Assembly: GCF_004912275.1 (NCBI RefSeq)
Contig: NZ_STGY01000025.1
Coordinates: 62,001-126,000 of the forward strand
Direction of reading: 5' to 3'
Length of the DNA: 64,000 nt
Origin: Glycomyces buryatensis
Lineage (GTDB): Bacteria; Actinomycetota; Actinomycetes; Mycobacteriales; Micromonosporaceae
Shown here: piece after piece, positions 7,363 through 57,531 of the stretch
Layout: every line of letters begins with the position of its first letter
Numbering within the stretch: the first letter of the stretch is position 1
Notes under the pieces: model-generated
Database searches by the model: none
The model's input: the letters and a program-made list of their open reading frames with translations, nothing else
Told to the model about the DNA's origin: nothing
Position numbers and translations under genes: made by a program

Positions 7363-7614
7363 TGAGCGGGCCGCCGGATGCGGTCCACTCGCTGGTATGG
7401 CGCGGACGAGTCGCCGGATGCGACTCGCCCGCGCGTCGGTTGGGGCCGTGAACACTGTGGAGTTGTAGGGCGGGCGCACCGGCTGGTTGCCGGTGCGCCC
7501 GCGATTTTCCTCGCGAGTTGCCGGTGCAGGAGCCGCACGCGGAGGCCTCCGCGTGCGATCTTCGGGGGCGGCTCCCGGGATAACCCAATGTTCTTACCGC
7601 CGATCCTGCACTGG
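7363..7614 (+). ncRNA. Structured intergenic element, copy 1 (candidate RNA or DNA-hairpin element)
   Basis: A chain of hairpins. A: 7364-7390, imperfect, loop CGGAT. B: 7400-7434, 8 bp plus 6 bp, loop CGGAT. C: 7470-7482 with 7490-7502, 13 bp perfect. The linker gattttcctcgcgag follows (7503-7517). Then comes a closed domain: P1 7521-7528 with 7607-7614; P2 GGAGCC 7529-7534 with GGCTCC 7570-7575; P3 7535-7556, an 11-bp perfect palindrome. The segment 7564-7603 is nearly identical to 57300-57338 in copy 2, while P1, P3 and the hairpin before the linker differ in sequence but stay fully paired. No protein-coding frame explains this. Strand and whether it acts as RNA are unknown. Confidence 0.5.
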
Positions 7615-7709
7615 CCGACACCAACTCGACTAGCCGGAATTGGTGCCACTACTTCAAAAACACAATCACATCATGCGCACCAAGGACCCACCAAAACTAT
7701 TTTGCCGCC

Positions 7710-7718
7710 TGTGGATAA
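7710..7718 (-). promoter_or_regulatory. Perfect DnaA-box 9-mer
   Basis: TGTGGATAA is the reverse complement of the consensus DnaA box TTATCCACA. A degenerate copy, TGTGGATGG, follows at 7721-7729. Whether DnaA binds here is untested. Confidence 0.45.
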
Positions 7719-7788
7719 CCTGTGGATGGGTCAGAGCAAACGCAGCTCAGCGGCCAATTGGTCAGCGGATGCGGACCGCTTGGGGGCC

Positions 7789-7797
7789 TGTGGATAA
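7789..7797 (-). promoter_or_regulatory. Perfect DnaA-box 9-mer
   Basis: A second TGTGGATAA, starting exactly 79 bp after the first. The same spacing separates the two boxes at 57444 and 57523 behind copy 2 of the structured element. Confidence 0.45.
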
Positions 7798-18054: not shown

Positions 18055-18136
18055 GCACGAGTGGCGGAACTGGCAGACGCGCAGGATTTAGGTTCCTGTG
18101 CCCTAGGGCGTGGGGGTTCGAGTCCCCCCTCGTGCA
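18055..18136 (+). tRNA. tRNA-Leu (UAG)
   Basis: The acceptor stem GCACGAG pairs with CTCGTGC (18129-18135) with discriminator A at 18136. The anticodon arm CAGGA-TTTAGGT-TCCTG gives anticodon UAG. A long variable arm typical of class II tRNAs and the T arm GGGGGTTCGAGTCCCCC follow. CCA is not encoded. Confidence 0.95.
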
Positions 18137-38667: not shown

Positions 38668-38740
38668 GGGGCTTTGGCGCAGTTGGTAGCGCGTTTCGTT
38701 CGCAATGAAAAGGTCAGGGGTTCGAATCCCCTAAGCTCCA
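38668..38740 (+). tRNA. tRNA-Ala (CGC)
   Basis: The acceptor GGGGCTT pairs with AAGCTCC (one G-U) with discriminator A at 38740. The D arm GGCGCAGTTGGTAGCGC, the anticodon arm TTTCG-TTCGCAA-TGAAA (anticodon CGC) and the T arm AGGGGTTCGAATCCCCT are all intact. CCA is not encoded. Confidence 0.95.
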
Positions 38741-57201: not shown

Positions 57202-57348
57202 GCGAGTGGACCGCTGGATGCGGTCCACTCGCGTATTCCTCGCGAGGTGTGGCTGTAGGAGCCGGGCGCGGGTGCACCCGCGCCCGGACTTTCCTCTACG
57301 GGGGCGGCTCCCGGGATACCCAATGTCTTACCGCCGGTCCTACAGCCA
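57202..57348 (+). ncRNA. Structured intergenic element, copy 2 (candidate RNA or DNA-hairpin element)
   Basis: Hairpin A': 57202-57214 with 57220-57232, 13 bp perfect, loop TGGAT (compare CGGAT in copy 1). Linker gtattcctcgcgag (57233-57246). P1': TGGCTGTA 57250-57257 with TACAGCCA 57341-57348. P2': GGAGCC 57258-57263 with GGCTCC 57306-57311. P3': 57262-57287, a 26-nt perfect palindrome. The 3' block 57300-57338 differs from copy 1 only by two 1-nt gaps and one A/G change, whereas P1', P3' and A' have different bases from copy 1 yet are fully paired. Confidence 0.5.
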
Positions 57349-57443
57349 ACGTCTCCTCGCTCTCCTCCGACCTCCGGCGAAGAGACGTTTTTGCTATCTA
57401 CCATCACAGGCCCGGCCAACATTTCCAACAAAAACTTTCCCCC

Positions 57444-57452
57444 TGTGGATAA
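57444..57452 (-). promoter_or_regulatory. Perfect DnaA-box 9-mer
   Basis: TGTGGATAA, reverse complement of TTATCCACA, about 96 bp after copy 2 of the structured element; the matching box after copy 1 is likewise 96 bp away. Confidence 0.45.
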
Positions 57453-57522
57453 CTCCCACCCGCAAATGGTCCTACCCCAGGTAACGCAGCATTCGGCGTG
57501 AAGATGCGACCTATTTCTCGCC

Positions 57523-57531
57523 TGTGGATAA
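57523..57531 (-). promoter_or_regulatory. Perfect DnaA-box 9-mer
   Basis: A second TGTGGATAA, starting exactly 79 bp after the one at 57444, repeating the spacing seen at 7710 and 7789. It lies just beyond the 3' end of the YyaL-like gene. Confidence 0.45.

Follow-up and report, generated by a model that had tools for sequence, protein, structure and literature searches.

Two structured elements in the window

The window analysed here is a 64,000-nucleotide stretch of Glycomyces buryatensis DNA, positions 62001-126000 of contig C7 in the source genome (G000, 5.82 Mb in 87 contigs; other G and L numbers denote genomes of the genus and fetched loci). It contains two copies of a structured element, whose parts are listed in Table 1. 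The first is faced by the end of a convergent TIM-barrel gene and the second lies upstream of a co-directional ABC transporter gene, the arrangement that a cis-acting riboswitch or attenuator would be expected to show in most copies; the neighbours of other copies were inspected by eye. When folded as minus-strand RNA, copy 1 gave z = -4.65 and copy 2 gave z = -7.48, and none of 200 dinucleotide shuffles folded as well.

A preliminary description of this DNA had outlined both loci, and the paired P1 and P3 stems and the 13-bp hairpins were all found again when coordinates were rechecked. The limits of the element have had to be redrawn. The conserved unit continues to ~7720 in copy 1 and ~57454 in copy 2, taking in a 5′ hairpin and a promoter that had been left unmarked, and the stretch 7363-7440, originally included, falls outside it. 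Left of copy 1, the stretch 7374-7435 contains another hairpin with almost perfect pairing, along with a segment that matches the 3′ half of the copy 2 H0 hairpin exactly (GGATGCGGTCCACTCGC); this is perhaps what remains of an earlier copy.

Table 1 Features of the two elements, in window coordinates.
Feature	Position	Strand	Basis or remark
Predicted RNA gene, copy 1	7470-7658	-	predicted 5′ end ~7658, placed by box spacing; 3′ end at H0 hairpin; R1 match C7:69516-69654 minus
TTATCCACAG box, copy 1	7709-7718	-	sequence
Second TTATCCACAG box, copy 1	7788-7797	-	sequence
-35-like TTGGTG (7689-7694) and -10-like TGTGAT (7665-7670), copy 1	7665-7694	-	18-bp spacer; putative, from array conserved in other copies
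5′ hairpin P5, copy 1	7617-7647	-	fold
P1 5′ strand, copy 1	7604-7614	-	alignment and covariation
P4 hairpin (GGCGG/CCGCC), copy 1	7567-7601	-	alignment and covariation
P3 hairpin, perfect palindrome, copy 1	7534-7557	-	alignment and covariation
P1 3′ strand, copy 1	7521-7531	-	alignment and covariation
Short palindrome CTCGCGAG, copy 1	7510-7517	.	sequence
H0 hairpin (13 bp), terminator-like 3′ end, copy 1	7470-7502	-	fold
Predicted RNA gene, copy 2	57202-57393	-	predicted 5′ end ~57393; R1 match C7:119245-119396 minus
TTATCCACAG box, copy 2	57443-57452	-	sequence
Second TTATCCACAG box, copy 2	57522-57531	-	sequence
-35-like TTGGAA (57423-57428) and -10-like GATGGT (57400-57405), copy 2	57400-57428	-	17-bp spacer; putative assignment
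5′ hairpin P5, copy 2	57348-57389	-	fold
P1 5′ strand, copy 2	57338-57348	-	alignment and covariation
P4 hairpin, copy 2	57303-57335	-	alignment and covariation
P3 hairpin, perfect palindrome, copy 2	57262-57287	-	alignment and covariation
P1 3′ strand, copy 2	57250-57260	-	alignment and covariation
Short palindrome CCTCGCGAGG, copy 2	57238-57247	.	sequence
H0 hairpin (13 bp), terminator-like 3′ end, copy 2	57202-57232	-	fold

A covarying three-way junction

A structure-blind alignment (A1) was made of 38 minus-strand copies, with rows L088, L026, L022 and L042 left out beforehand. RNAalifold predicted from it a three-way junction of 30 base pairs, 14 of which show two-sided changes. Among the 36 distinct rows, 97.5% of 1076 cells are paired. 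Two-sided changes occupy 106 cells, compared to 29.8 after shuffling, and the covariation score is 0.312, while shuffling gave 0.131 and sliding no more than 0.083; neither observed value was reached in 500 shuffles, although relatedness of the sequences inflates such counts. The occurrence of further pair types is less striking, as 25 of 500 shuffles reached the observed value. The earlier proposal of a selected structure with true compensatory change is therefore upheld.

The helix inside P1 had been assigned as a P2 of GGAGCC/GGCTCC, but across the genus it is instead GGCGG/CCGCC, here named P4. The P2 assignment was dropped together with the idea that GGCGG/CCGCC forms a pseudoknot, as a plain P4 helix fits and a junction of this type also forms when seven divergent copies are folded. 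Two further ideas were discarded: a bistable 5′ strand, which is confined to one subfamily and absent from the others, and an integron attC-like or Y-RNA-like reading.

The covarying pairs also carry information on the strand. Read as minus strand, the RNAalifold table has 39 G.U and 14 A.C cells, numbers that swap on the plus strand. A second count, over 97 unique rows of an alignment fitted to the RNA model, gave 117 G.U and 65 A.C, with 32 of the 65 A.C cells in one pair that is unformed in many divergent copies. Most likely, then, it is the minus strand that carries the RNA, and the hairpin that had been described as preceding the closed domain is its terminator-like 3′ end. The lack of a clear U-tract after H0 on the minus strand counts against this orientation. 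In addition, most copies outside the source genome have, in the plus orientation, a T-tract after the P5 hairpin that can be read as a terminator. A plus-strand RNA ending at this T-tract, as first drawn, would make use of that feature, but the G.U/A.C counts favour the minus strand and conservation extends past the T-tract as an oppositely oriented promoter, making this reading extremely improbable. At the H0 hairpin of L022, L030, L042 and others (G014, G016), N runs and implausible poly-G/poly-C tracts were observed; this hairpin seems to spoil short-read assembly.

Distribution of the family

The core motif occurs exactly at five places in the source genome, and exact scans of genome and viral contig collections, together with blastn against phages and plasmids, gave no match. 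It was present in only one of 41 relatives, which reflects low sensitivity, since blastn with copy 1 then found 15 of the 22 genus genomes. With the covariance model R1 (E ≤ 0.01), 19 of these 22 match, with 3-20 matches each among the matches listed, part of which are short antisense hits on the P3 palindrome (model positions 108-133); the other three (G001, G003 and G020) have no match among those listed. The family is thus larger than the two copies first reported, as the source genome alone has the five exact-core copies, seven R1 matches and five related promoter ends cut at contig ends. In 200 sampled genomes of the order, searched with stricter filters, five matched, all of this genus, and 195 did not, at least 20 of these being from other genera of the family. 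The covariance model and the aligned copies together show that homologues with covarying stems exist in related genomes.

The view that no known RNA family is present also held on comparison with Rfam 15. In the window only two tRNAs were matched (tRNA genes lie at 18055-18136 and 38668-38740), and in 12 loci searched at E values up to 0.5 there were four matches, all below the gathering threshold. A symR match in the 3′ hairpin region of L163 (1062-1111, minus) scored 31.5 against a threshold of 61. Among the hits listed by searches of the accessible literature, none dealt with an RNA family or box of this kind.

Promoter and box of the predicted RNA genes

Each unit is a cassette of ~230-270 bp comprising a TTATCCACAG box, -35/-10-like elements, the three-way-junction RNA and the terminator-like hairpin. 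TTATCCACAG is the DnaA-box sequence, and many RNA loci carry two or three. Upstream on the minus strand the order is TTATCCACAG, an A-rich stretch, CTTGGCA or similar, ~17 bp, and TGTGANNGT. Box and TGTGA are separated by the same distance in 28 of 41 rows; as rows were selected partly on TGTGA, the conservation of this motif itself is biased.

As the promoter region is not part of R1, 60 additional R1 matches outside the model alignment were fetched, being part of those listed; one is strong (E 2.7e-33) and the others range from E 5.6e-18 to 1.5e-3. In 59 of these we see TTATCCACA, TTGTCCACA or TTATCGACA no more than 130 nt upstream or within the first 20 nt, and the remaining copy has TTATCCATA instead. 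Of 40 strong rows, 35 have the A-tract of the RNA 59-62 bp from the box, and 53 of the 60 others have it at 60-62 bp. The five strong rows that lack the A-tract all belong to the source genome, being four near-identical copies and L069; the -35 of copy 1 is poor. In G015, another repeat (L088, L081, L084 and L087) carries the same box with a TTGACC-N17-CAGGCT promoter, and is possibly a further RNA subfamily that R1 matches poorly.

Across the source genome there are 43 TTATCCACAG sequences, compared to two for the reversed control. Twenty-one were assigned to 12 RNA loci (seven with RNA bodies and five with only related promoter ends at contig ends), eight to five competence-type genes, seven to dnaA/dnaN (oriC) and dnaB, and five lie inside ORFs. 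Two further boxes, at C21:54271 and C24:11782, fit neither RNA, competence nor replication genes. In the window, TGTGGATAAC occurs four times, each time as a box of one of the two RNA loci; 100 shuffles gave none. Clusters of TTATCCACAG were observed in L253 (contig C84 of the source genome), L095 (G010) and L086 (G015), and the L095 protein has weak TcpF/VirB4-like ATPase similarity. The C84/L095 repeats were considered as a regulon gene and removed, as in the source genome they lie inside a 1046-aa ORF and are read as YPQ repeats.

Because boxes also occur at oriC and dnaB, a gene cannot be classed with competence by its box alone. Their presence at dnaA/dnaN and dnaB, the DnaA-box sequence itself and the two or three boxes at many loci are all consistent with the loci being DNA sites that titrate or load DnaA, with structural hairpins and incidental RNA. 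This account leaves unexplained the fixed -35/-10 array, the fit to protein-gene start codons and the covarying RNA helices with their one-strand G.U preference, and we consider it improbable.

The box is shared with competence-type genes

The same box is found upstream of comEA, an M23 peptidase gene, a DUF4192 gene, a nuclease-like gene and the tad-pilus gene ssd. Identification of comEA is based on TIGR00426, above cut-off; TIGR01259 gave 101.8 and 108.4 bits and so stayed short of its cut-off (152.35). Ssd/CpaE is matched by TIGR03815 at 238 and 223.7 bits (cut-off 154.45), and in the source genome T2SSE and T2SSF genes follow ssd, as in tad operons. The similarity of the nuclease-like gene to MTES_1575 nucleases is sub-threshold.

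The 10 comEA, M23, DUF4192 and nuclease-like genes measured in three genomes all have their ATG 59-61 bp from the box. In three ssd genes, where a leader intervenes, the distance is 95-96 bp. A search for named comEA loci returned 11, of which 10 are from Glycomyces and one from an uncultured Clostridium. All 10 Glycomyces loci have at least one TT[AG]TCCACA upstream, and in eight the box lies 59-60 bp from the ATG, while the other two misfit the start pattern; one of the named loci, L212, appears to be a contig already counted. The predicted 5′ end of the RNA is at the same distance from the box as the start codons of the comEA-type genes. A single start site ~60 bp from the box, together with leaderless mRNAs, would explain the spacing of both. 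This shared box at a shared distance, and its presence at ssd, places the RNAs with these genes in one predicted regulon of natural competence.

Genes resembling comEA occur in 59 of 61 genomes of the order. Among loci from other genera (29 of the 58 non-own loci, L287-L315), 12 have a total of 14 TT[AG]TCCACA boxes upstream, all in gene orientation and none reversed, with one hit for the reversed-pattern control; the other 17 have no such box upstream, and downstream of the 29 there are none on either strand. Of the 12 loci with boxes, eight have candidate starts 59-64 bp from a box and four at ~80 bp, a spacing that is suggestive only, since there are several candidate starts per gene and some boxes lie inside the open frame. 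The DnaA-type box at comEA may, judging by these sequences, be an old feature of the order.

Copying of the box-to-terminator cassette

In 17 of 21 near-identical paralogue pairs, identity begins 0-8 bp before the box. Most pairs end at or somewhat beyond the H0 hairpin, while pairs within the source genome end earlier or differ in H0. These boundaries show that the box-to-terminator unit is copied as one cassette. At the copy 2 locus, which lies between the DUF255 gene and the ABC transporter gene, 11 genomes have the RNA, eight lack it and three were unscorable. The RNAs at this site fall into three subfamilies (recognised by eye, as are the subfamily names A-D); in G015 a contig end is close by and 0.5 kb separates the RNA from the gene. 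In L266, L273 and L261 (G018, G016 and G009) the 3′ end of the DUF255 gene seems to run into the box (CAGCGCACGGAGTTATCCACAG), and its original stop region may thus have been exchanged for the cassette. Five contigs of the source genome (C2, C9, C62, C71 and C86; L066-L068, L070 and L071) break just inside related RNA promoters, the missing bodies probably being identical repeats unplaced by the assembler.

MITE- and REP-like dispersed repeats are short, intergenic, multi-copy and rich in inverted repeats, and the Glycomyces elements are alike in this, but they have their own promoter, a terminator-like hairpin, a covarying junction and one end at a regulatory box. The elements could be selfish MITE-like cassettes that spread within or between genomes with a captured competence-type promoter, the RNA serving the cassette and not the host. 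The boundaries of the paralogue pairs, the presence and absence of the RNA at the copy 2 locus and the contigs that end inside related copies would all fit. However, no mobility-protein ORF was seen beside the copies looked at, and inspection by eye of the edges viewed revealed neither terminal inverted repeats nor a target duplication. Four copies in the source genome agree from box to P1 and diverge in H0, a pattern resembling gene conversion, and compensatory change in all helices and the fixed promoter argue for a working RNA. We therefore consider selfish spread unlikely, though less so than DnaA titration.

Interpretation and comparison with known systems

The covarying structure, the family size, the position of the box and the shared spacing are computational observations. 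We think it probable that each element is a minus-strand small non-coding RNA gene, belonging to a sibling family found here only in Glycomyces and to a predicted natural-competence regulon. Of the preliminary interpretation, the structure, its novelty with respect to Rfam and the homologues have stood, the strand, extent and copy number have been revised, and the DnaA-type box and promoter, the competence link and the box-to-terminator cassette had been missed.

In the favoured reading of a competence-linked RNA gene, TTATCCACAG ~60 bp before the predicted start, the A-rich stretch and the sigma-70-like -35/-10 would drive an RNA of ~190-210 nt, whose parts would be a 5′ hairpin, a three-way junction with P4 and P3 closed by P1, and, at the 3′ end, a strong hairpin. 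The sibling RNAs would be co-expressed with the competence genes, perhaps under DnaA as the putative regulator, and might jointly tune the extent or the timing of DNA uptake, acting in trans either through base pairing or by sequestering a protein. A crude pairing test with five regulon mRNAs gave no convincing mRNA target: one of ten comparisons fell below 0.05 (DUF4192 with copy 2, 0.02), at most modestly above chance.

The nearest working analogue is the pneumococcal csRNA set, described as five sibling sRNAs of the CiaR regulon that act additively (PMC4507080). Both systems have several similar RNA genes per genome, one promoter motif and a tie to competence. The Glycomyces RNA differs in being larger and junction-forming, in having a DnaA-type box and not a CiaR site, and in belonging to another phylum, and its predicted regulon includes the uptake genes themselves. 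E. coli promoters of the DnaA regulon, as studied by DnaA ChIP-seq (PMC11317965), similarly have a DnaA-box sequence upstream, with boxes often paired. There, paired boxes are 2-3 bp apart, whereas the repeat distance in Glycomyces is ~21 or 45 bp, and the putative DnaA site of Glycomyces is fixed in position relative to the promoter. Natural transformation in Micrococcus luteus likewise involves tad and comEA-comEC genes in an actinobacterium (PMC8467076). The main text of that paper has no occurrence of 'DnaA' or 'sRNA', and the shared box and the RNAs are, relative to that main text, features of Glycomyces.

More tentatively, the DnaA-type box ~60 bp before the start may be an old switch of competence genes in the order, on which Glycomyces built dispersing promoter-RNA-terminator cassettes. 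A replication-linked signal would then make the RNA copies together with the uptake machine, and the cassettes might themselves spread by the transformation that goes along with them. We regard this scenario as possible, with a likelihood well below that of the competence-linked RNA gene itself.

These data add a further RNA family, strongly structured, so far unlisted and with many paralogues per genome. They also give a concrete predicted regulon, in which one box and promoter layout serves comEA, the tad operon, the peptidase, DUF4192 and the RNA set. How competence is controlled in Actinobacteria is, according to the M. luteus paper (PMC8467076), little known. If DnaA binds the box, replication state and DNA uptake would be coupled. 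The RNA set points to an RNA layer in the control of DNA uptake in Glycomyces.
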